Shown here: positions 42,486-53,608 of the stretch, one piece after another
How positions within the stretch are numbered: the stretch's first letter is position 1
How the letters are laid out: every line of letters begins with the position of its first letter
Assembly (NCBI RefSeq): GCF_014653945.1
Contig: NZ_BNAU01000008.1
Span: 248,001-312,000 of the forward strand
DNA length: 64,000 bases
From: Amycolatopsis deserti
GTDB taxonomy: Bacteria > Actinomycetota > Actinomycetes > Mycobacteriales > Pseudonocardiaceae
Direction of reading: 5' to 3'
Made by a program: the position numbers and the translations under genes
Notes under the pieces: model-generated
Seen by the model: only the letters and a program-made list of their open reading frames with translations
What the model was told of the DNA's origin: nothing
Databases searched by the model: none

Positions 42486-43286
42486 ATGACCCGCCGCACA
42501 CTCGAGTACGCCGCGGTCCCGGGGTTCCGGCCGCTGCTGCTGGACCTCCACCGCGGGCAGACACCGGGGCCGGCGCCCCTCGTGGTGTTCGTGCACGGCG
42601 GCGGCTGGCGCGTCGGCAGCCGGGAGAGCTTCGGCCCGATGTTCGCGGACTGGTCGCCCAGCCCGTTCGAGCGGCTCGCCGACGCCGGGTTCGCCGTGGC
42701 GAGCGTGGACTACCGGCTCACCGGCGAGGCGCCGTTCCCCGCCCAGCTCGACGACGTGTCCGCCGCCTTCGCCTGGCTACGCGACCACGCCGGCGAACTG
42801 GACCTGGACACCGACCGGATCGTCGTGTGGGGCGAGTCAGCCGGCGGGCACCTCGCCGCGCTGGCCGGGCTGCGAGAGCCGGGCGTGGTCGCGGTCGTCG
42901 ACTGGTACGGCCCCGCCGACCTGACCGCGCTGGAGGCGGACCTGGCCGAGGCCGGACTGGTCGCCCAGCCCGCGCCGGGATCCATCGAGACCCGCGAGGC
43001 ACTGCTGCTCCGCGACGCCTCCCCGGCCGACGCCAGCCCGGTCACGCACGTCCACACCGGAGCACCGCCTTTCCTGCTTCTGCACGGGAAATCCGACCGG
43101 TTCGTCCCGTGCGCCCAGTCGCGGCGGCTGGCCGAGGCGCTCACCGCGGCCGGCTCCGAAGTGGACCTTCGGCTGTTCGACGGCGCCGACCACATGTGGC
43201 TCGGCAATGCCGATCTCGCCGCCACCGCCTTCGACCTCTCACTCGAATTCGCCCGTACTCACTGCTTTGGGGGACACGTTGCCTGA
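42486..43286 (+). CDS. Alpha/beta hydrolase (carboxylesterase/kynurenine-formamidase-like)
   Basis: 266 residues. Oxyanion motif VFVHGGGWRVGS (about 33-44), nucleophile elbow WGESAGGHLAAL (about 117), then LHGKSDRFVP (Asp) and DGADHMWLG (His). This HGGGW type hydrolyses small esters or amides. It overlaps the next monooxygenase gene by 8 bp, suggesting that ester cleavage and hydroxylation act in sequence. ATG 42486 with GAGGTG upstream. Confidence 0.82.
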   Translation: MTRRTLEYAAVPGFRPLLLDLHRGQTPGPAPLVVFVHGGGWRVGSRESFGPMFADWSPSPFERLADAGFAVASVDYRLTGEAPFPAQLDDVSAAFAWLRDHAGELDLDTDRIVVWGESAGGHLAALAGLREPGVVAVVDWYGPADLTALEADLAEAGLVAQPAPGSIETREALLLRDASPADASPVTHVHTGAPPFLLLHGKSDRFVPCAQSRRLAEALTAAGSEVDLRLFDGADHMWLGNADLAATAFDLSLEFARTHCFGGHVA

Positions 43287-44883
43287 TCACTTTCCGGTTC
43301 TCATCGCGGGCGGCGGCCCCAGCGGGCTCGCCGTCGCGATCGAGCTGGGCCGCGCGGACATCCCGTGCCTGCTGGTCGAACCCCGCGAGACCGTCACCGG
43401 CGACCGGCCGCGCGCCAAGACGACCAGCGCCCGCACGATGGAGCTGCTGCGCCGCTGGGGACTGGCCGACCGGGTCCGCGCGGCCGCGCCGCTGCCCGTG
43501 TCGCACGCGCAGGACGTGGTGTTCTGCACCAGCCTCACCGGGCACGAGATCACCCGGTTCCCCAACGCGTTCGCGATGCACGCGGGGCGGCGGGACGAGT
43601 TCGCCGAGTGCGGCCAGCAGATCCCGCAGCCGATCGTGGAGCAGGTGCTGCGCGAGGCGGTCGCGGAACTGCCGTCGGTGCGGACCCGCTTCGGCTGGCG
43701 GCTGGTGTCCGCCGAGGACGGTGCCGCCGGGGTCCGGGCGTCGATCGCCGGGCCGGACGGCGCGGTCCGCGAGGTGACGGCCGACTACCTGATCGGCTGC
43801 GACGGGGCCGGCGGCATCACGCGGGACGTGATCGGCGCGCGGTACTCCGGCGGGAGCGGTGAGCTGCCCAACCTGAACATCACCTTCCGCGCGCCCGCCC
43901 TGACCGACGAGACGGTGTGCGCACGGGCGGTCCACTACTGGGTGCTCGGCGCCGAGCTCGGCGGGATCGTCGGGCGGATGGACACCGACGGCACGTGGTG
44001 GGCGATCGCGCAGGGCGTGGACGTTCGGGACGGCGACGTCGACCCGGCCGCTCTGGTGCGGCGGCTCATCGGGGCGGAGGTCGAGGTCGAGGTGCAGGCG
44101 ACCGATCCCTGGGTGGCGCGGATGCTGCTGGTGGACCGGTATCGCGGGGAGCGCACGTTCCTGGTCGGCGACGCGGCGCACCTGAACCCGCCGTGGGGCG
44201 GGCACGGGTACAACACGTGCGTCGGGGACGCGGTGAACCTGGCGTGGAAGCTGGTCGCGGTGCTGCGCGGCTGGGCCGGACCGGCGCTGCTGGACAGCTA
44301 CGAGCCGGAGCGGCGCCCGGTGGCGCGGCAGACGATCGCGGACGCGGCGGCGCAGGAGAACCACCTGGCGCGGGCGTTCGCGCACCCCGACATCGACGCC
44401 GCGACCCCGGCGGGCGCGGCGCGGCGGGCTCGCGTCGCCGAGGCGCTGTCCGCCAAACGCGGCGAGTTCCACAGCCTCGGCCTGGTGCTCGGCTACCACT
44501 ACGCCGGCTCGCCGATCGTCGTGGACGACGGCTCGCCGGTGCCCGCGCACGAACCGCTGACCTACCACGGCTCGGCGCGCCCGGGAACGCGCCTGCCGCA
44601 CCGGTGGCTGCCGGACGGTTCGTCGCTGTTCGACCACCTCGGACCGGGCTTCACCCTCCTGCGTCTGGATCCGGTGCCGGTGGAGTCCTTTGTGGAGTCG
44701 GCCCGTGCCCGTGGCCTGCCGCTGACGGTGCTGGACCTGCCCGGGCTGCCCGGCAAGGACTCCTACGGCGCCCCGCTGCTACTGATCCGCCCCGACCAGC
44801 ACATAGCCTGGCGCGGCACCACCCCGACCGCCGAGGTCCTCGACATCGCCCGCGGCGCGCACGCCGCTGTGCTCAGCCGCTGA
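43279..44883 (+). CDS. FAD-dependent aromatic hydroxylase (phenol hydroxylase/MhpA-like)
   Basis: 534 residues from TTG 43279, with GGGGGA upstream and an 8-bp overlap with the esterase. FAD motif IAGGGPSGLAVAIELGRA, YLIGCDGAGG, and RTFLVGDAAHLNPPWGGHGY with AVNLAWKL are intact. A C-terminal thioredoxin-like domain (GYHYAGSPIVVDDG to the end) is present, as in phenol hydroxylases. Substrate unknown. Followed by a short duplicated segment and then the MFS importer. Confidence 0.84.
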   Translation: MPDHFPVLIAGGGPSGLAVAIELGRADIPCLLVEPRETVTGDRPRAKTTSARTMELLRRWGLADRVRAAAPLPVSHAQDVVFCTSLTGHEITRFPNAFAMHAGRRDEFAECGQQIPQPIVEQVLREAVAELPSVRTRFGWRLVSAEDGAAGVRASIAGPDGAVREVTADYLIGCDGAGGITRDVIGARYSGGSGELPNLNITFRAPALTDETVCARAVHYWVLGAELGGIVGRMDTDGTWWAIAQGVDVRDGDVDPAALVRRLIGAEVEVEVQATDPWVARMLLVDRYRGERTFLVGDAAHLNPPWGGHGYNTCVGDAVNLAWKLVAVLRGWAGPALLDSYEPERRPVARQTIADAAAQENHLARAFAHPDIDAATPAGAARRARVAEALSAKRGEFHSLGLVLGYHYAGSPIVVDDGSPVPAHEPLTYHGSARPGTRLPHRWLPDGSSLFDHLGPGFTLLRLDPVPVESFVESARARGLPLTVLDLPGLPGKDSYGAPLLLIRPDQHIAWRGTTPTAEVLDIARGAHAAVLSR

Positions 44884-44891
44884 TCTTCCCC

Positions 44892-44947
44892 CGCTCCCCG
44901 TCTCAGTGTGGAGGCACCTTGAGCATCGAACCCACCGCCGCGCGCGC
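44892..44947 (+). repeat. Truncated upstream copy of the MFS leader and start
   Basis: This 56-bp segment is repeated at 45151-45206 with one mismatch. It contains the GTGGAGG ribosome site, the TTG start and the first 11 codons of the downstream MFS gene; beyond them the frame diverges. The 203 bp between copies hold no gene I can support. Confidence 0.85.
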
Positions 44948-45150
44948 AGCCTTCGGGGGCGGCTCTTTTCGTCCGGGTGCGCGCGGGCGAGATGGGCGTT
45001 CCCTGCGAGGCCGCATAGTCACGATCGCCAAGGGATGTGGGCGTTACCGCCGCACCTGCCACCCATGACGCGGCTCCGCTCGCCTGGGCCCGGCCGGCTG
45101 CGCCGCTTGCCAACCGCGCCACGTGCTTGCTCCCTCCATCCCCTCCTGTC

Positions 45151-45206
45151 CGCTCCCCGTCTCAGTGTGGAGGCACCTTGAGCATCGAACCCACGGCCGC
45201 GCGCGC
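45151..45206 (+). repeat. Functional copy of the duplicated MFS leader
   Basis: Second copy of the 56-bp repeat, 259 bp after the first. Here the TTG at 45178 opens the full MFS reading frame. Confidence 0.85.
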
Positions 45207-46566
45207 CACCGACGCCGCGGCCCTCCTCGCCCGCGTCGAGCGGATTCCGCTGACCCGCTACCACCTCCGGGTGGCCTCGATACTGGGCGTCGGCACGTTC
45301 TTCGACTCCTTCGACGCCCTCATCCTGTCCGTCGCGCTCACCGCGGTCCTCACCACGCTCGGCGCGCCGCTCTCGGTCGCCGGGACGCTCATCGCCGTCG
45401 GGTACGTCGGCCAGATCGCCGGCGCCATCCTCTTCGGCGTCATCAGCGAACGCTACGGCCGCAAGACCGCCTTCGTCGCCGCCTCCGCCCTGTTCGGCCT
45501 CCTCGCGCTGGCCTCGGCCATCGCCTGGAACGTCGAAAGCCTGATGGCCTTCCGCCTCATCCAGGGCATCGGCCTGGGCGCCGAAGTGCCCGTCGCCGCG
45601 ACGATCTTCAACGAGTTCGTCCGCGCCCGCGCCCGCGGCCGGATCGTGCTCGTCTACGAAAGCCTCTTCGTGTGGGGCATCCTCGGCGCCACGCTCGTCG
45701 GCGCGCTGTTCCTGTCCGTGTTCCCGCCCGAGGACGCCTGGCGCTGGCTGTTCGTGATCTCCGGCGTCCCGGTGCTCACCGCGGTGTGGGCGCACTTCCG
45801 CCTGCCCGAGTCGCCGCGCCACCTCATCCACCGCGGCGACCTGGCAGCCGCCACCGAGATCGTCGAGGCGATGGAGGCCAGCGCCCGCCGCGGCGGCCGC
45901 ATCCTGGAAGAACCGCACAAACCCGCCGACGTGCGGCCCGAGCCGCCCACCCGCTTCGGTGAGCTGTTCTCCCGCGACTACCGCGGCCGCACGCTCACCC
46001 TGTGGTGCATCTGGTTCACCACGTTCCTGCCGCTGGGCGGGTTCACGTCCTGGATGCCGACGCTGCTGGTCCGCGTCGGCCACCTCACCCCGGCCGTCGC
46101 GTCCCTGCTCACCGGCGGCATCGTGGTCGGCAACCTCATCGCCCTCTACGTCAGCGCGTCCTCTTTGGACAAGCTGGGCCGCCGGTTCTGGTTCGCCGCC
46201 GGGTACGGGCTGGCCCTGGCCGGCAGCGTCGGCGGCGTGCTGCTCGGCTCGACCGGCTGGGTGGCGCTGTTCGTGTGCGGCGCGCTGGTGCTGTTCGGCG
46301 TGAACATCAACGCGCCACTGGCCTACCTCTACACCGCCGAGCTCTACCCGACGCGGATGCGCGCCTGGGCCACGATGGTCGGCAGCACGATGCGCAACCT
46401 CGCGTCGGTCATCGCGCCGATCACCATCGGCCTGCTGCTCGGCGCCGCCACCGGAGTCGTGTGGAGCTTCGCGCTGACCGCCGCCGTGCTGTTGATCGGG
46501 CTGCTGGTCGTGCTCCGCTTCGGCATCGAGACCAAGCAGCGGCGGCTGGAGGAGCTGGCGCGATGA
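45178..46566 (+). CDS. MFS transporter, sugar/aromatic acid porter type
   Basis: 462 residues from TTG 45178, four bases after GTGGAGG. Twelve segments; FFDSFDALILSVAL after segment 1 is the D-x-x-D signature of the aromatic acid:H+ symporter branch, and SERYGRKTAFVAAS and PESPRHLIHRGD are MFS/sugar-porter motifs. Probably imports the substrate of the upstream esterase and hydroxylase. Ends five bases before the convergent MarR gene. Confidence 0.82.
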   Translation: MSIEPTAARATDAAALLARVERIPLTRYHLRVASILGVGTFFDSFDALILSVALTAVLTTLGAPLSVAGTLIAVGYVGQIAGAILFGVISERYGRKTAFVAASALFGLLALASAIAWNVESLMAFRLIQGIGLGAEVPVAATIFNEFVRARARGRIVLVYESLFVWGILGATLVGALFLSVFPPEDAWRWLFVISGVPVLTAVWAHFRLPESPRHLIHRGDLAAATEIVEAMEASARRGGRILEEPHKPADVRPEPPTRFGELFSRDYRGRTLTLWCIWFTTFLPLGGFTSWMPTLLVRVGHLTPAVASLLTGGIVVGNLIALYVSASSLDKLGRRFWFAAGYGLALAGSVGGVLLGSTGWVALFVCGALVLFGVNINAPLAYLYTAELYPTRMRAWATMVGSTMRNLASVIAPITIGLLLGAATGVVWSFALTAAVLLIGLLVVLRFGIETKQRRLEELAR

Positions 46567-46571
46567 CCCGG

Positions 46572-47003
46572 TCAGGAGGGCGGGCGGTCCCAGTCGGCGT
46601 GCAGCGCCGCGCGCAGGGCCCGCACCGGTTCACGCCCGATCCGGCGCGCCAGCGCCGCCTCGGCCCGGCGCAGGATGCCGACCGCGGTCCGGTGCGTCCG
46701 CTCGCCCTCCGCGGTGCGCCGCACCAGGCGCTGCCGTCCGGACGAGGGGTCCGGCACCTGTTCCAGCAGCCCGAGCCGGGTCAGCGCCTGGACGGCCTGG
46801 TGCGCCGTCTGCCGGGTCACGCCCATGCGGCGGGCCAGTTCGGACACCGTCGTGCCGCCCGCGTCGAGCACCGCGAACAGCCCGACCTGGGTGCCCGACA
46901 CCGGCGCCGCGCCCGCCCGGGCCAGCCCGGCGATCAGGGCCTCGTCGAACCACCGCCGTGCCTCGCCGAGCGACTGGGCGAGTGTGGGTTCTTGTTGCAC
47001 CAC
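46572..47003 (-). CDS. MarR-family regulator of the quercetinase gene
   Basis: 143 residues. Winged helix TTVSELARRMGVTRQTAHQAVQAL with wing DPSSGRQRLVRRTAEG. Divergent from the quercetinase gene, 50 bp apart, with a perfect 15-bp palindrome between them. By analogy with flavonoid-responsive MarR proteins it probably represses the dioxygenase until a flavonol binds. Confidence 0.83.
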   Translation of the reverse strand: MVQQEPTLAQSLGEARRWFDEALIAGLARAGAAPVSGTQVGLFAVLDAGGTTVSELARRMGVTRQTAHQAVQALTRLGLLEQVPDPSSGRQRLVRRTAEGERTHRTAVGILRRAEAALARRIGREPVRALRAALHADWDRPPS

Positions 47004-47015
47004 AACAGGATATAT

Positions 47016-47030
47016 GTCAGGCTGCCTGAC
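47016..47030. promoter_or_regulatory. MarR operator upstream of quercetinase
   Basis: GTCAGGC-T-GCCTGAC is a perfect palindrome with 7-bp arms, midway between the divergent MarR and quercetinase starts. A TATATG stretch lies just left of it, a possible -10 for the MarR gene. Confidence 0.75.
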
Positions 47031-47053
47031 GAAAGCACCGACCGGGAGACATC

Positions 47054-47614
47054 ATGACGGCAGAGTTCGCCACCCCCTACCGCCGCGCGTCGCGCATCCC
47101 CGCCGAGCCGGGCAAGCCGTACTTCATCGAAAAGGGCGAGGGCGACCGCGCCCACCTCTTCGGCGACCTGTTCACCATCTACGCGGGCGGCGAGCAGACC
47201 GAGGGCACGTTCAACTTCTTCACCTGCGAGGGCCCGAAGGGCGACATCATCCCGGCCCACCTGCACCCCGACACCTACGAGGTGTTCTACGTGACGGCCG
47301 GCGCGGTGCGGCTGTTCGTCGAAGACACCGAGGGCAACCAGCAGGAGAAGCTGCTCACCCCCGGCGACTTCGGGTTCGTGCCGAAGAACTGCCCGCACGC
47401 CTACCAGATGGAACGGCACCACAGCATGGTCGTCGGCGTGGCCGCCGGTCCGGGCGGGACGTTCGAGCGGTTCTTCGAAAACCTCGGCGTCCCGGCCGAG
47501 GAACTGGGGCTGCCGAAGGTGCCCGCGGTGCCGGAGCCGCACAAGTTCGGCACCGTGCCGCAGCGCTACGACGTGAAGTTCCTCCCGGAGCACCGCTGGC
47601 ACACCACGCCCTGA
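47054..47614 (+). CDS. Quercetin 2,3-dioxygenase (monocupin quercetinase)
   Basis: 186 residues, one cupin domain. The metal ligands are clear: His69 and His71 in PAHLHPDTYEVFYV with Glu76, and His115 in KNCPHAYQ. Length and ligand spacing match the Streptomyces monocupin quercetinases, which cleave the flavonol C ring, releasing CO and a depside. ATG 47054 with GGGAG upstream. Stand-alone under a divergent MarR regulator. The depside product would need an esterase; candidates exist elsewhere in the window but are not linked. Confidence 0.85.
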   Translation: MTAEFATPYRRASRIPAEPGKPYFIEKGEGDRAHLFGDLFTIYAGGEQTEGTFNFFTCEGPKGDIIPAHLHPDTYEVFYVTAGAVRLFVEDTEGNQQEKLLTPGDFGFVPKNCPHAYQMERHHSMVVGVAAGPGGTFERFFENLGVPAEELGLPKVPAVPEPHKFGTVPQRYDVKFLPEHRWHTTP

Positions 47615-47680: not shown

Positions 47681-49489
47681 ATGACCCTGCCCGTCGCCGC
47701 CGTCGTCGGCCTGCTCGAAGCAGCCGAGCAGGACACCGACGTCGCTGAGCTGCTGGCCGGCCTCGACCACGCCGACGCCGAGCGGATCGCCTCCGGGATC
47801 CGGCGCCTGCGGGCCACTTCGGACCGCCTGCGGCGCCGTGGGCAGGAACTCGCCGCCCTGTTCTCCTCCGCGCGGGAGCTGGCCGAGCTGCGGGACGTCG
47901 ACGAGCTGCTGGCCCGGCTGGTGGAGCGGGCCCACGACCTGGTCGGCACCGACGTCACCTACCTGTCGGAGTTCGACGTCGGCAGCCGGGAGCTGCGGGT
48001 GCGCACGACGCTGGGCACGGTCGCGCCGTCGTTCCCGGGCCTGCGCGTGCCGCCGGGGATGGGCCTGGCCAGCCAGGTGGTCGAAAGCCGCCGCCCGTGC
48101 TGGACCGCCCGCTACGACGCGATGACCCAGGCGCCGCACGACGACCGGATCGACGAGACCGTCGCCGCGGAGGGGCTCGTCTCACTGCTCGGGGTGCCGC
48201 TGCTGGCCGGGGACGAGGTCATCGGGGTGCTGTTCGCCGCCAACCGCGTCGAGCACGCGTTCTCCCCGGAGGAGATTTCGCTGCTGTCGGCGTTCGCCGA
48301 CCACGCCGCCGTCGTGCTGCAGACCGCCCGGCTGCTGGCCCGCGCCAACACCGCGGCCGACGAGACCCGCCGCGCCTACGGTGAGCTGGCCCGGCACGTG
48401 GAGGCGATGGAACGCGCCAGCGAGGTGCACGGCGACCTCACCACGCTCGTCCTCCAGGGCGGCGACGCCACCGAGGTGGCCGGGGCCCTCGGCCGGGCCC
48501 TGCGCTGCCGCGTCGCGCTGCTGGACACCGATCACCTCGACGGCGGCGTGCGGGAGGCCGTCGAGCAGAGCCGCCGCAGCGGACGTTGTGTGCCGGCGGG
48601 CGAAGGCGCCTTCGTGGTCGCCGTCGTGGCGGGGCCGACGCTGCTCGGCGCGCTGCTGCTGGAACAGGGCGCCGTCGAGTTCGGACCGGTGGAGTTCCGC
48701 ACCGCCGAGCGCGCCGCCCAGATCACGGCGCTGCTCAGCCTCAAACAGGACGCCCTGATCGAGGCCGAGCAGCGCGTGCGCGGGGATCTGCTCGCCGACT
48801 TGCTCTCCGCCGACGCCGACCGGCGCGCGGGTGCCGCCACCCGCGCCCGGGCCCGCGGCATCCGGCTGGACGGCCCGCGTTCGGTCGTGGTCGTCGCGGT
48901 CCCCGCCGATCTGCGCCACCAGGCGGCCCGCGCGCTGCGCCGGACCGGGGACCTGGTCGGTGAGCACGCGGACCACATCGTCGTCCTGACCCCGGCGGAG
49001 GACCCCGCCGCCGCGGCCCGGGCCGTGCACACCGCCGTCGCGCGCTCACTGGCCGCCCCGGTCCTGGCCGTCGGCGCCGCGGCCGAGGACGACCTGCGGG
49101 AACCCGTCGAGCAGGCCACCGCGTGCGTGCGCATCCTGCCCGCGCTGGGCGTGTCCGACGCGGCGGCCACCACCGACGAGTACCTGCCCTACACGGCGCT
49201 GTTCGGGCCGGGCGAGGCCCGCGTGTCCGCGTTCGTGCGCCGGGTCCTCGGGCCGGTCCTGGACTGGGACGCCGAGCACGCCGGCACCCTGCTGCCCACG
49301 CTCGCCTCCTATCTGGACAACCGCATGAGCCCGGTCGCCACCGCCCGAGCCCTGCACGTGCACAAGAACACCGTGCTGCAGCGGCTGGACCGCGCCGCCG
49401 AGCTGCTCGGGGAGGGCTGGCAGGACCCGGACCGGCTGTTCCGGCTGACCGTCGCGGTCCGGCTGACCCGCCTGGCCGAACGTCCATAA
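47681..49489 (+). CDS. GAF-domain PucR/CdaR-type transcriptional regulator
   Basis: 602 residues. A GAF domain (about 65-215: LARLVERAHDLVGTDVTYLS to LSAFADHAAVVLQTARLL), a central region with coiled-coil, then the PucR C-terminal HTH (TLASYLDNRMSPVATARALHVHKNTVLQRLDR, about 550-580). These proteins activate catabolic operons after ligand binding. It sits 100 bp upstream of the HMG-CoA reductase/lyase operon on the same strand, so it is the obvious regulator of it. ATG with GAGGTG upstream. Confidence 0.85.
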   Translation: MTLPVAAVVGLLEAAEQDTDVAELLAGLDHADAERIASGIRRLRATSDRLRRRGQELAALFSSARELAELRDVDELLARLVERAHDLVGTDVTYLSEFDVGSRELRVRTTLGTVAPSFPGLRVPPGMGLASQVVESRRPCWTARYDAMTQAPHDDRIDETVAAEGLVSLLGVPLLAGDEVIGVLFAANRVEHAFSPEEISLLSAFADHAAVVLQTARLLARANTAADETRRAYGELARHVEAMERASEVHGDLTTLVLQGGDATEVAGALGRALRCRVALLDTDHLDGGVREAVEQSRRSGRCVPAGEGAFVVAVVAGPTLLGALLLEQGAVEFGPVEFRTAERAAQITALLSLKQDALIEAEQRVRGDLLADLLSADADRRAGAATRARARGIRLDGPRSVVVVAVPADLRHQAARALRRTGDLVGEHADHIVVLTPAEDPAAAARAVHTAVARSLAAPVLAVGAAAEDDLREPVEQATACVRILPALGVSDAAATTDEYLPYTALFGPGEARVSAFVRRVLGPVLDWDAEHAGTLLPTLASYLDNRMSPVATARALHVHKNTVLQRLDRAAELLGEGWQDPDRLFRLTVAVRLTRLAERP

Positions 49490-49588
49490 CCGCGGCCCCT
49501 CGGATAGACGATCGGTCCATTCCGGCGACGAAGTGCGCGAGCTAGCGTCCTGGTCGTCACGCAGCCACACGGAAGTGGAAGGGGCGCT

Positions 49589-50863
49589 ATGGCGCGCACC
49601 AGTCGTATCCAGGGACTCCGGGATCTGCCCGTCGAGGCCCGGCGCAAGGCCGTCGCCGAGGCGGCCGGGCTCGACCCGGCGCTGGTCGCGGCGTTCGATC
49701 CGGCCCACGGGCTCGACACCGGCGCGGCCGACCACATGATCGAGAACGTGGTCGGCATCCTCGGCGTGCCGCTGGGGGTGGCCACCAACTTCGTGGTCAA
49801 CGGCGCCGAGGTGCTGGTCCCGATGGCGACCGAGGAGGCCTCGGTGGTCGCCGCCGCCAGCAACCCCGCCAAGATCGCCCGCGTCCGCGGCGGGTTCCGC
49901 ACGTCCTCGACCGCGCCGATCATGCAGGCGCAGGTGCAGATCGTCGGCGTGCGCGACCCGGAGGCGGGCCGCGTCCGCCTGCTGGAGGCCCGCGACGAGC
50001 TGATCGAGCTGGCCAACGCGCAGGACGAGAAGCTCGTCGAGTTCGGCGGCGGCGTCCGGGACATCTCGGTGCGGCTGGTGCCGTCCCGCGCGGGGACCTA
50101 CGTCGTCGCGCACCTGCAGGTCGACGTGCGCGACGCCATGGGCGCCAACGCGGTGAACACCATGGCCGAGGCGGTCGCCGCGCGCGCCGGGGAGATCGCC
50201 GGCGGCCGCGCGCTGCTGCGGATCCTGACCAACAAGGCCGATCTGCGGCTGTCCCGGGCCCGCGCGGTGTTCGACGCCGGATCCCTGGGCGGCCCGGCAG
50301 TCGTGGACGACATCGTGCACGCCGCCGCGTTCGCGGAGGCCGATCCCTACCGCGCCGCGACCCACAACAAGGGGATCATGAACGGCATCAGCGCGGTCGT
50401 GCTCGCCACCGGCAACGACACCCGCGCGGTCGAGGCCGGCGCCCACTCGCACGCCGTCTCCGCGCAAGGCCGGTACACGTCCTTGTCCCGCTTCGAAAAG
50501 GACGCCGACGGCAACGTGGTCGGCACGCTGGAACTGCCGATGCCGGTCGGGCTCGTCGGCGGTGCCACGCGCGTCCACCCCGTGGCGCAGGCCGCGGTCG
50601 CCCTGCTCGGCGTGCGGACCGCGACCGAGCTGGCGGAGATCATCACCGCGGTCGGGCTCGCGCAGAACTTCGCCGCCGTGCGGGCGCTGGCGACCGAGGG
50701 CATCCAGCGCGGGCACATGTCGCTGCACGCCCGCAACATCGCCACGACCGTGGGCGCGACCGCCGCAGAGGTCCCGGCGGTCGTCGCGCGGCTGGTCGCC
50801 GACCGGAAGGTCCGCGCCGACCACGCCGAGAAGGTCCTCGCCGAGCTGCGGGCGCGGGGCTGA
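49589..50863 (+). CDS. mvaA: Degradative (class II) HMG-CoA reductase
   Basis: 424 residues, the usual class II length. Residues matching the Pseudomonas mevalonii active site are present: Glu83 in ATEEASVV, Lys261 in THNKGIMNG, Asp277 in TGNDTRAVEAG, and the GHMSLHARN His segment (376-380). ENVVG and DAMGAN lie at about 52 and 182. Class II enzymes oxidise mevalonate to HMG-CoA in catabolism, using NAD, though some act biosynthetically. The next gene is HMG-CoA lyase and no other mevalonate-pathway gene is nearby, which supports the degradative direction. Confidence 0.9.
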   Translation: MARTSRIQGLRDLPVEARRKAVAEAAGLDPALVAAFDPAHGLDTGAADHMIENVVGILGVPLGVATNFVVNGAEVLVPMATEEASVVAAASNPAKIARVRGGFRTSSTAPIMQAQVQIVGVRDPEAGRVRLLEARDELIELANAQDEKLVEFGGGVRDISVRLVPSRAGTYVVAHLQVDVRDAMGANAVNTMAEAVAARAGEIAGGRALLRILTNKADLRLSRARAVFDAGSLGGPAVVDDIVHAAAFAEADPYRAATHNKGIMNGISAVVLATGNDTRAVEAGAHSHAVSAQGRYTSLSRFEKDADGNVVGTLELPMPVGLVGGATRVHPVAQAAVALLGVRTATELAEIITAVGLAQNFAAVRALATEGIQRGHMSLHARNIATTVGATAAEVPAVVARLVADRKVRADHAEKVLAELRARG

Positions 50864-50864
50864 C

Positions 50865-51785
50865 GTGACCGCCGATCAGCTGCCCGGTCTGCCGTCCGCG
50901 GTGACGATCTGCGAGGTCGGCCCGCGCGACGGGCTGCAGAACGAATCCGCGCTCGTGCCGGCCGCGGTGAAGGTCGAGCTGGTGGAGCGGCTCGCCGACG
51001 CCGGGCACACCGTGATCGAGACGACCAGCCTGGTCCACCCGGACCGGGTGCCGCAGCTGGCCGACGCCGAGGAGGTCCTGCGCCGCCTCGACCGCCGTCC
51101 CGGCGTGCGCTACCCGGTGCTGGTGCCCAACCAGCGCGGCCTGGCGCGGGCACTGGACCTCGGCGTCACCGACATCGCCGTGTTCGCCTCGGCCACCGAG
51201 AGCTTCGCCAGGGCCAACCTCGGCCGGTCCGTCGGCGAGTCGCTGGAGATGTTCGCGCCCGTGGTGGCCCGGGCCCGCGAAGCCGGGCTCGGCGTGCGCG
51301 GCTACCTGTCGATGTGCTGGGGCGACCCGGAGGAGGGCGTGGTCCCGCTGTCGCGGGTGATCGCGGTCGCCACCCGGCTGTTCGGACTCGGCTGCACCGA
51401 ACTGAGCCTCGGCGACACGATCGGCGTCGCCACCCCCGGCCGCGTCGTCGCGCTGCTCGATGGGCTCGTCGCCGCGGGCGTCCCGATCGGACGGATCGCG
51501 GTGCACTTCCACGACACCTACGGTCAGGCCCTGGCGAACACCCTCGCCGCCCTGCAGCGCGGTGTCACCACTGTCGACGCCTCCGCGGGCGGGCTGGGCG
51601 GCTGCCCGTTCGCCAACAGCGCCACCGGCAACCTCGCCACCGAAGACCTGCTGTGGCAGCTCGACGGGCTCGGCATCCACACCGGTGTCGACCTGACCAA
51701 ACTCGCCGAGACCAGCGTGTGGCTGGCCGGGCACCTGGGACGGCCCAGCCCGTCCCGCGCCCTGCGCGCGCTCACCGGCGCCTGA
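50865..51785 (+). CDS. mvaB: Hydroxymethylglutaryl-CoA lyase
   Basis: 306 residues from GTG 50865, one base after the mvaA stop. GPRDGLQNE (about 19-27) holds the catalytic Arg-Asp, HFHDTYGQALAN the metal-binding His pair, and GGLGGCPFA the active-site Cys; SLGDTIG precedes it. Cleaves HMG-CoA to acetyl-CoA and acetoacetate. The gene order matches the mvaAB operon of P. mevalonii. Leucine catabolism is another use of this lyase, but no leucine-pathway gene is present. Confidence 0.9.
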   Translation: MTADQLPGLPSAVTICEVGPRDGLQNESALVPAAVKVELVERLADAGHTVIETTSLVHPDRVPQLADAEEVLRRLDRRPGVRYPVLVPNQRGLARALDLGVTDIAVFASATESFARANLGRSVGESLEMFAPVVARAREAGLGVRGYLSMCWGDPEEGVVPLSRVIAVATRLFGLGCTELSLGDTIGVATPGRVVALLDGLVAAGVPIGRIAVHFHDTYGQALANTLAALQRGVTTVDASAGGLGGCPFANSATGNLATEDLLWQLDGLGIHTGVDLTKLAETSVWLAGHLGRPSPSRALRALTGA

Positions 51786-51804
51786 CCCCCAACGGAGGAA
51801 AACC

Positions 51805-52209
51805 ATGGCACTCAACGAAGAGCAGCCCTACGTCGTCGTCTGGAACGACGCCGTCGACCTGCGGCACCTGGCCGCGTCGGTCGTCATCTGCGTGGCCGCC
51901 GGCCTGCCGGTCTTCCTCGGCGCGAAGGCGCTGTTCGGATCACTGGTCGACACGCCGTCGCTGGCCGGAGGCTACGCGCTGCTGGCCGGACTGGCCGCGT
52001 GCGTGCTCGCCGCCGCCGTCTGCGCCCGCCTGTTCCGTCCGAAGCGGACGTTCGGCGCCGAGCAGGCCGCGGACCGGGAGGCCGCGCTCGCAGAACTGGA
52101 ACGGATGGGCGGCACCGCCGAGACCTTCGCCGAGCTGCCGCCGCGCGTGCGGGCCGAGATGACCGAGCTGGGCCTGGTCCGCGAGACCGCGCCGGAGGTG
52201 CGCGCATGA
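51805..52209 (+). CDS. Small membrane protein, TctB-like position
   Basis: 134 residues with two hydrophobic segments (about 24-43 and 52-72), then a charged cytosolic tail (AADREAALAELERMGG). It overlaps the TctA-type permease gene by four bases (ATGA). In tripartite tricarboxylate transporters a small membrane subunit TctB precedes or follows TctA, but TctB usually has four segments, so this would be a reduced or unrelated partner. AACGGAGG before ATG. Confidence 0.65.
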   Translation: MALNEEQPYVVVWNDAVDLRHLAASVVICVAAGLPVFLGAKALFGSLVDTPSLAGGYALLAGLAACVLAAAVCARLFRPKRTFGAEQAADREAALAELERMGGTAETFAELPPRVRAEMTELGLVRETAPEVRA

Positions 52210-53573
52210 CCCCGGATCTGCTGTGGGCCCTGGGCATGGGCCTGCTCGGCGCGGTCGTGTTCGCCGCGATCGGCCTGGTCTCCGGCACCGACGAGACCTC
52301 CACGCTCGCCCCGGTCACCCTGCTCGTCGTGCTGCTGGGCGTGCCGCCGGCCGGGGTGCTGACGTTCTTCATCGCCGGTGCCGTCAGCAAGCACATGACC
52401 CACGCGATCCCCACCACGCTGCTGGGCATCCCGGGCGACACGACCGCGGTGCCGCTGCTCGACGACGCGACCGCGTTGCGCCGCCTCGGCGCCCCGCACA
52501 TCGCGCTGCGCAAGGCACTGGCCGGCGGGCTGGTCGCCGCGTTCATCGCGGTGCCGGTCGCGGTCGGCGTGGCGTCCCTGCTCGCCCCGCTGGCCGGGCC
52601 GATCAAGACCGTGGCGCCGTTCGTGTTCGGCGCGGCCGCGATCTTCGTCGGCTACTTCTCGCCCGGCCGGTGGGCCAGCATCGCCGCGATCGTGCCGTTC
52701 GCGTTGCTGGTGACCGGGCTCAACACGGTCGCCACCGACCAGCTGGACAAGAGCCTGTCGATCAGCTTCTTCCTCGGCATCGCGATCGGGCCGCTCGTGG
52801 TGGACCTGCTCATCGCCTCGTCCCGGAACGGGCGGCGCACCCTGGAGCGCACTGGGCCGCGCCCGTTCTGGCTCGCCCCGGACAGCGGCGCGGGACGGCG
52901 CTGGATCCCGAACCCGCTGCGGATCCTCGACCGCGGGCAGGCGGCCGCGACCGCCGCCGCGGCCGGGGTCACCTCGACGACGTTCATGCTCAGCCCGGTC
53001 GCCGCGACGGTGCTCGCGGGGGAGATCACCGGGTCCCGGATCAGGCACCCGTACCGCAGGCTGACCACGTTGATGGCGGTCAAGAACGGCACCACGGAGT
53101 CGACCTACCTGGCCGAGACGCTCATCCCGCTCGTCGCGTTCGGGTTGCCGTTGAGCCCGGTCGCCGCCGGTCCCGCCGCGGCGCTGTTCAACGCGCCGCC
53201 GGTCTACACCGTCAAGGGACCGGACGGGGGCGTGCACAACCTGCACACCCTGCTCAGCTCCTGGCAGTTCCTGGTGTTCAGCCTGATCGGGGTGGCGATC
53301 GCCGGGCTGGTGGTGTACCCGTTCGCGATGCGCTACGCGCGCGCCGCCAGTGGCTGGGTCGCGCGGCGGATCAGCCACGAGGCGCTGATCGGCGCGTTCG
53401 TGGCGCTGATCGCGGTGGTGGCGTGGTACGAGGGCGGGCCGCTCGCGCTCGCGGTGAGCCTGACCGTCGGCGCCGTCGGCGGCCTGGCGAACCGGATGCT
53501 CGGCATGACCTCCGGCGTGCAGTTCATGGCCTACTACGTGGCCGTGCTGCTGGTGCCGCTCGTCCTCGGCTGA
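52206..53573 (+). CDS. TctA-type permease (tripartite tricarboxylate transporter family)
   Basis: 455 residues, about 11-12 membrane segments. ISLE-like opening, then the paired signature loops TTLLGIPGDTTAVPLLDDA (about 77-95) and a second half with LIPLVAFGLPLSPVAAGPAA, fitting the inverted-repeat TctA fold. TctA channels import carboxylates with a TctC binding protein, which is absent here. Operon position after mvaA-mvaB suggests mevalonate or a related branched hydroxy acid. A strong terminator follows nine bases after the stop. Confidence 0.78.
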   Translation: MTPDLLWALGMGLLGAVVFAAIGLVSGTDETSTLAPVTLLVVLLGVPPAGVLTFFIAGAVSKHMTHAIPTTLLGIPGDTTAVPLLDDATALRRLGAPHIALRKALAGGLVAAFIAVPVAVGVASLLAPLAGPIKTVAPFVFGAAAIFVGYFSPGRWASIAAIVPFALLVTGLNTVATDQLDKSLSISFFLGIAIGPLVVDLLIASSRNGRRTLERTGPRPFWLAPDSGAGRRWIPNPLRILDRGQAAATAAAAGVTSTTFMLSPVAATVLAGEITGSRIRHPYRRLTTLMAVKNGTTESTYLAETLIPLVAFGLPLSPVAAGPAAALFNAPPVYTVKGPDGGVHNLHTLLSSWQFLVFSLIGVAIAGLVVYPFAMRYARAASGWVARRISHEALIGAFVALIAVVAWYEGGPLALAVSLTVGAVGGLANRMLGMTSGVQFMAYYVAVLLVPLVLG

Positions 53574-53582
53574 GACGTGGAA

Positions 53583-53608
53583 AGCCCCGCCGCAGGGGCG
53601 GCGGGGCT
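53583..53608 (+). terminator. Terminator of the mvaAB-transporter operon
   Basis: AGCCCCGCCG and CGGCGGGGCT form a perfect 10-bp GC-rich stem with a 6-base loop, nine bases after the TctA stop. The same hairpin would serve the small minus-strand gene that converges from 53683. Confidence 0.85.

Follow-up and report, generated by a model that had tools for sequence, protein, structure and literature searches.

A five-gene cluster in the genome of Amycolatopsis deserti (7.74 Mb, 24 contigs) raises the question of whether a bacterium that degrades mevalonate may also encode a dedicated carrier for its uptake. The cluster lies in a stretch of 64,000 nucleotides (contig NZ_BNAU01000008.1, positions 248,001 to 312,000), hereafter called the window. 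An earlier note on this DNA had described genes for a regulator, a class II 3-hydroxy-3-methylglutaryl-coenzyme A (HMG-CoA) reductase (HMGR; MvaA), an HMG-CoA lyase (MvaB), a small membrane protein, and a TctA-like permease on one strand, and all five open reading frames (ORFs) were found (Table 1). Mevalonate, from which cholesterol and other isoprenoids are built, is known to be degraded by HMGR and lyase in the case of the mvaAB operon of Pseudomonas mevalonii. We consider it very probable, on the basis of the gene content, that the five genes form an operon for mevalonate catabolism that encodes its importer as well: the TctA-like permease and its small partner are combined with MvaA, MvaB, and a PucR/GAF switch.

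In the proposed mechanism, mevalonate would enter the cell through a two-subunit secondary transporter composed of the small protein and the permease, with no dedicated binding protein involved. MvaA would oxidise mevalonate with nicotinamide adenine dinucleotide (NAD+) and CoA to HMG-CoA, which MvaB would split into acetyl-CoA and acetoacetate; in response to mevalonate, the PucR/GAF protein would activate the genes. We infer the direction of transport, mevalonate as the substrate, the ion coupling, the two-protein complex, and the ligand of the regulator. Acetoacetate would be activated elsewhere, outside the operon, and the earlier description of the operon as self-contained was overstated in this respect.

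The pathway is a known one, and the transporter variant is the new part. Similar to the P. mevalonii operon, the cluster pairs a class II HMGR (55.8% identity, 234/419 aligned residues) with an HMG-CoA lyase; here, a PucR/GAF regulator and a two-gene TctA-like transporter share the operon with them. According to PMC12405511, several bacteria have systems for importing mevalonate, the mammalian MCT1 F360C mutant is called the only previously known importer, and a yeast carrier, JEN1t Y180, was evolved for mevalonate import to fill this gap. JEN1t Y180 and MCT1 F360C share with the carrier of the operon the import of mevalonate, which is proposed here from the genes, but both are engineered or mutant monocarboxylate carriers. 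No bacterial mevalonate importer of this TctA-like type was found in the literature searched, in which subscription journals were thinly covered. If the proposed function is correct, genes for natural mevalonate import would be named, and the operon would provide a clean test of whether bacterial TctA-type permeases work without a binding protein, a question raised in the review PMC5812351.

Linkage of the carrier genes to mvaA across genomes

A similarity search with the permease in 84,980 species genomes yielded 364 relatives, and the best 80 loci were read. The closest named relatives were those of Amycolatopsis thermalba (98% identical) and A. tucumanensis (97%). The small gene lay directly upstream of the permease gene in 80/80 loci. 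The reductase gene mvaA was present in 78/80, less than 3 kb from the permease in 77 of the 78 and on the other strand in one, and mvaB was present in 51/80. In the remaining 29 loci no lyase was detected in the stretch, which is a further respect in which the operon was too readily called self-contained. The 80 loci span 30 genus-level groups, assigned from record titles, in Actinomycetota, Proteobacteria, metagenome-assembled genomes (MAGs) of Selenomonadales, and an Acidobacteria MAG, and include Burkholderia, Rhizobium, Acinetobacter, and Pseudomonas. Sampling was uneven (16/80 loci were from Brevibacterium); at the level of groups, mvaA occurred in all members of 28/30 and in some member of 30/30. 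Permease matches were found in 6/72,556 plasmid records, and the five of these six that were fetched all carried mvaA and the small gene.

The divergence of the permease co-varied with that of the small protein (r 0.86, 57 loci) and with that of MvaA (r 0.68, 54 loci); in Mantel tests from which rows more than 95% identical had been removed, 0/2000 permutations reached as high a value in either comparison, and shared phylogeny alone can yield such co-variation. In a sample of 200 genomes of the same family, 18 strong permease matches (that of the window included) and 27 genomes with an HMGR over the cut-off were identified, excluding from the co-occurrence one genome (G004) with a weak permease match of 33% over query residues 20-159. 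An HMGR over the cut-off was present in 17/18 strong-permease genomes, and the other one (G162) contained sub-cut-off HMGR fragments, one of them at a contig end. A phylum-wide sample contained the permease in 2/396 genomes, namely that of the window and G249, in which HMGR lies 1.6 kb from the permease.

Judged from these gene contexts, the link between the transporter and mevalonate, which had been a guess in the earlier note, is well supported. We further think it likely that mevalonate is naturally imported in many bacteria by a TctA-derived, two-subunit family that needs no binding protein and whose two-helix partner, previously unnamed, bears the signature EVWGDTVD. At one locus of the set, in Pseudomonas viridiflava (L112:5251-7372), a class III CoA-transferase gene, a FAS1-dehydratase-like gene, and a third gene stand between mvaB and the small gene.

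Reductase, lyase, and the direction of the pathway

MvaA belongs to the HMG-CoA_red family; it scored 411.5 bits with the degradative HMGR model TIGR00532 (cut-off 260) and failed the NADP-type model TIGR00533 (66 vs a cut-off of 442). Residues E83, K261, D277, H376, and D146 of the P. mevalonii HMGR are conserved in MvaA; we take Glu83, Lys261, Asp277, and His376 to be the catalytic residues, and Asp146 presumably goes with NAD preference. MvaB, whose gene adjoins mvaA in the same direction with a 1-bp gap, scored 370.5 bits with the HMG-CoA lyase model NF004283 (cut-off 246), and its best solved relative was the mitochondrial HMG-CoA lyase 2cw6 (E 1e-89). The motifs EVGPRDG, IETTS, HFHDTYGQ, and GLGGCPFA are all present in MvaB, and the assertion that the active-site residues of both enzymes are intact was thus confirmed for the key MvaA residues and the MvaB motifs. 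In Burkholderia cenocepacia (L026), the HMGR that adjoins the permease and small genes is nearly identical (889 bits, 423 residues) to the solved structure 6p7k, which we take to be the B. cenocepacia HMGR; this enzyme is reportedly termed oxidative in the title of one paper.

The genome of the window yielded no match to HMG-CoA synthase (PF01154) and no mevalonate kinase over the TIGR00549 cut-off of 163, the four weaker matches being located in three places with a best score of 74.9 bits. The dxs gene of the methylerythritol phosphate (MEP) pathway is present, and HMGR occurs as a single copy. HMG-CoA thus has no evident isoprenoid use, and we read MvaA and MvaB as catabolic. The presence of other mevalonate-pathway genes elsewhere in the genome had been named in advance as a finding that would speak against degradation, and neither the synthase nor a kinase over the cut-off was found. 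The proposed degradation is supported by the identity to the P. mevalonii enzyme, the conserved key residues, the co-operonic lyase, and, above all, the missing biosynthetic remainder.

The TIGR00532 cut-off was also passed in 1/14 control genomes and in G286 and G308. A 751-amino-acid HMGR ORF over this cut-off was observed at L194:6964-9216 and L195:2728-4980, and the L194 HMGR adjoins genes that by eye resemble mevalonate kinase and decarboxylase types.

Comparison of the permease pair with tripartite tricarboxylate transporters

As described in the review PMC5812351, tripartite tricarboxylate transporters consist of TctA, with 12 transmembrane segments (TM) and the repeated motif G-Hy3-G-Hy3-G-Hy2-P-G-Hy-G in TM1 and TM7, TctB, a small subunit with four TM, and TctC, which binds the solute. 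The operon shares with TctCBA (TC 2.A.80) a large PF01970 permease and a small membrane protein gene directly upstream of it. The permease matched PF01970 (TctA) with 64.9 bits against a cut-off of 28.9, whereas the canonical TctA of the same genome scored 501.5 bits, and 57/57 aligned permeases matched this family at E 0.001. The P-G-hydrophobic-G motif was found in 0/57 permeases, in contrast to the PGIG of the canonical TctA in the window's genome, and 55/57 carry GTDET in the first-helix region. A loose form of the PG motif occurred in some ORF of 30/30 TctB loci, a count that comes without a control for the chance level. The AlphaFold2 (AF2) model of the permease had a mean predicted local distance difference test (pLDDT) score of 85.3 and a predicted template modelling (pTM) score of 0.87.

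The small protein matched no Pfam family over the cut-off and no NCBIfam family. When 54 small proteins were compared with Pfam at E 0.1, TctB (PF07331) was not among the 25/29 families listed, and the comparison of the small protein with TctB by hhalign (probability 20%, 27 columns) revealed no significant relation. Its AF2 model (pLDDT 79.7) comprises an N-terminal beta hairpin followed by membrane helices at residues 19-47 and 51-76, and the partner therefore differs from TctB also in being two-helix in the model.

No TctC gene (PF03401) was found in or near the operon, as the earlier note had observed. The search for a TctC elsewhere in the genome, which that note had proposed, was run and revealed a single TctC; the only TctC and TctB matches of the genome, including the only gene matched by the PF07331 profile, adjoin the canonical TctA on contig C2 (L058, G000:C2:920000-936000). 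The permease resembles the archaeal stand-alone TctA (arCOG04469), a PF01970 protein suggested, in PMC5898192 and PMC5812351, to act without TctB and TctC; unlike those mostly stand-alone archaeal genes, it is tied to one partner and set among catabolic genes. Rare bacterial genomes have tctA without tctC, and whether such permeases act alone is left open in PMC5812351.

The two membrane proteins thus do not make up a tripartite tricarboxylate transporter of the canonical kind. The gene content suggests that this TctA-related transporter can probably dispense with a binding protein and that the pair is probably a binding-protein-free mevalonate importer. The suggestion that it represents a different two-part importer gained support from the linkage to mvaA in 78/80 loci, from two clusters with another oxidation route, and from transporters of the tripartite ATP-independent periplasmic (TRAP) type beside HMGR elsewhere, both described below.

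Alternative explanations

Several observations weigh against the proposed function. The counts rest on the best 80 of the 364 relatives, and the structure comparison of the permease model gave no convincing solved relative. In the family sample, 10/27 genomes with HMGR lacked the permease, and hydantoinase-like genes adjoin HMGR in them (HyuA/HyuB were read by eye in these 10 loci, least clearly in L191 and with a gene caller that overlooks or misframes some high-GC genes; Pfam confirmed one pair, in L187). HMGR thus does not need this carrier; in those genomes mevalonate can be handled without it, or HMGR serves another pathway. In Brevibacterium oceani (L125), the stretch around the permease and the small gene contains neither an mvaA nor an mvaB match, and a TauE-type gene adjoins the permease; in G187, a congener of the window's species, HMGR is located about 100 kb from the permease in a hydantoinase-type cluster. 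TctC is present somewhere in 38/42 carrier genomes. The degradative HMGR model also passes at least one HMGR with a biosynthetic-looking context (L194, G308; by eye), and a TIGR00532 match alone consequently does not prove direction. Finally, guilt by association cannot tell mevalonate from mevalonolactone or 3-hydroxy-3-methylglutarate.

The TctC distribution would fit an ordinary tripartite transporter whose permease relies on TctC (and TctB) borrowed from a canonical system at another site of the same genome, such as the one on contig C2, and a TctC match does occur in the stretch at 2/80 loci (in L093 at a distance of 6 kb downstream, in L122 next to a match to canonical TctA), although this search used the TctC of the window's genome as its one query and was weak. 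We nevertheless regard borrowing as very unlikely, given that TctC was not found in 4/42 carrier genomes (G249, Actinomycetospora, Brachybacterium, and Acinetobacter; completeness was shown for G249 alone, at 100%), that among same-family carriers it lies at least about 21 kb away on the permease contig (12/17) or on other contigs only (5/17), and that the permease lacks the PG-hydrophobic-G motif of TctA and has its own fixed partner. A reversal of the pathway, in which MvaA would be reductive and the permease would export the mevalonate made, appears extremely improbable. Assays in either direction have been carried out on a class II HMGR, that of R. pomeroyi (PMC12292504), and the passing of the degradative model in a biosynthetic-looking context points the same way; against this stand the genome of the window, in which neither a match to HMG-CoA synthase nor a mevalonate kinase over the cut-off was found, and the presence in the operon of a lyase that destroys HMG-CoA.

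The identity of the substrate bears on two clusters that retain the small gene and the permease but have no mvaA in the stretch, L127 (Nocardioides lijunqiniae) and L057 (G187). Alcohol and aldehyde dehydrogenase genes, the former of the zinc type, and a class III CoA-transferase gene are present in both stretches. L127 also has a gene for HMG-CoA lyase 3' of the permease, and its CoA-transferase gene is cut by the stretch edge; in L057, the alcohol dehydrogenase gene lies beyond a LysR-like gene on the opposite strand, and a lyase gene was not detected in the stretch. A possible route in these clusters would lead from mevalonate through mevaldate and 3-hydroxy-3-methylglutarate to HMG-CoA. 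Mevalonate would be the compound common to this route and the MvaA route, both of which can start there. The CoA-transferase could also activate free 3-hydroxy-3-methylglutarate, and an SMP-30/gluconolactonase gene in a Shinella cluster of mvaA and ATP-binding cassette (ABC) transporter genes hints at lactones in related clusters; the imported substrate might accordingly be one of these close relatives of mevalonate. This is unlikely, in our view: the CoA-transferase query matched 3/80 loci as against 78/80 for mvaA, the substrate of whose product is mevalonate, and the two dehydrogenases would be superfluous for free hydroxymethylglutarate. Both clusters (L127:2-10258, L057:4823-11943) also contain a cupin gene.

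Regulator and candidate operator

The regulator has the C-terminal helix-turn-helix that defines the PucR family (PF13556 HTH_30, 66.2 bits vs a cut-off of 27, E 2e-18) and a GAF_2 domain (E 5e-17). A PucR relative was found in 47/80 permease loci, in actinomycete genera only; this count includes a match of 39% over 349 residues lying 7 kb off (L102). The divergence of PucR co-varied with that of MvaA (r 0.93, 36 loci, Mantel test). A MocR-type regulator was matched in 30 permease loci, of which about 26 look real after four Brevibacterium matches, including that of L125 at 23%, are set aside. The inverted repeat between pucR and mvaA occurs at the same position with 9-bp perfect arms at a congeneric locus (L044), and the other genera that were inspected did not show it as a single motif. 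It is a weak candidate operator.

Other transporters beside the reductase

A search of plasmids for the HMGR protein yielded 37 records, six of which were already in the permease set; of the 31 new records, 12 were read. None of these 12 loci matched the permease or the small gene. A TRAP transporter adjoins HMGR in 6/12 (L228, L230, L231, L235, L236, and L238), all from alphaproteobacteria; its genes lie downstream of HMGR in Tistrella, Ruegeria, Sulfitobacter, and Paroceanicella and upstream in Sagittula and Nitratireductor, and a MocR-type regulator was matched at 5/6 of these loci. For the two TRAP binding proteins tested (Sulfitobacter and Ruegeria), the nearest solved structure was 2zzv, followed by constructs of the lactate-binding TTHA0766, and these relatives would be in keeping with a hydroxy-acid substrate. 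The alphaproteobacterial systems resemble the operon in adjoining mvaA and are candidates for a TRAP-type mevalonate importer, but they differ from it in having a TRAP binding protein and in showing no match to the permease or the small gene. The import slot beside mvaA looks exchangeable from these arrangements, which suggests that mevalonate may be a nutrient with exchangeable import modules across several phyla, namely TctA-like, by position TRAP, and perhaps ABC.

The remaining plasmid loci were diverse. On a Shinella plasmid (L229:5465-12257), HMGR is followed by a sugar-type ABC transporter and an SMP-30/gluconolactonase-family gene, an arrangement that may reflect mevalonolactone use, and an ABC binding protein is encoded near HMGR on an Azospirillum plasmid. 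On two haloarchaeal plasmids (L232, L237), an HMGR with a degradative annotation precedes a gene of the "acyclic terpene utilization AtuA" family and small genes annotated as hypothetical. HMGR is accompanied by hydantoinase genes on a Rhodococcus plasmid, and no annotated transporter was found near it on a plasmid of Rhizobium CC-CFT758, where there is an annotation gap.

A second actinomycete context of HMGR consists of hydantoinase/oxoprolinase A and B genes (L182-L192, L196, L233), to which some of these loci add genes for PucR, a class III CoA-transferase, an enoyl-CoA hydratase, HMG-CoA lyase, and a CoA-transferase. One guess is that the hydantoinase-type clusters provide a lactone- or ketone-activating step.

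Operon layout and neighbouring genes

The coordinates of the operon features are listed in Table 1.

Table 1. Features of the putative mevalonate operon, numbered from the first nucleotide of the window
Feature	Position	Strand	Description
pucR	47681-49489	+	602 aa; HTH_30 + GAF; proposed mevalonate-responsive regulator
Inverted repeat GGATAGAC-N5-GTCCATTCC, imperfect	49502..49523	.	pucR/mvaA intergenic; weak candidate operator
mvaA	49589-50863	+	424 aa; class II NAD-type HMG-CoA reductase, interpreted as degradative
mvaB	50865-51785	+	306 aa, GTG start; HMG-CoA lyase
Small two-helix membrane protein gene	51805-52209	+	134 aa; proposed obligate permease partner
TctA-like permease gene	52206-53573	+	455 aa; proposed mevalonate importer
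GC hairpin	53583-53608	+	11-bp stem; possible transcript end, without U-tract

The gaps along the operon are 99, 1, and 19 bp, and the small gene and the permease gene overlap by 4 bp (ATGA), which suggests translational coupling. The gaps of 1-100 bp given previously were nearly exact for the first three junctions and did not hold for the overlapping last pair. The hairpin behind the permease gene, which had been called a strong terminator, does have an 11-bp GC stem and an energy of -28.4 kcal/mol over a 56-nt stretch (z -3.3); however, it lacks a U-tract and was absent from the listing of the terminator scan. The hairpin is thus a possible transcript end. Upstream of the operon, at 43207-47614, are genes for a flavin adenine dinucleotide (FAD) monooxygenase, a major facilitator superfamily (MFS) transporter nearest to the aromatic-acid type, a divergent MarR regulator, and a cupin protein; these look like genes of aromatic catabolism, separate from the mevalonate operon.

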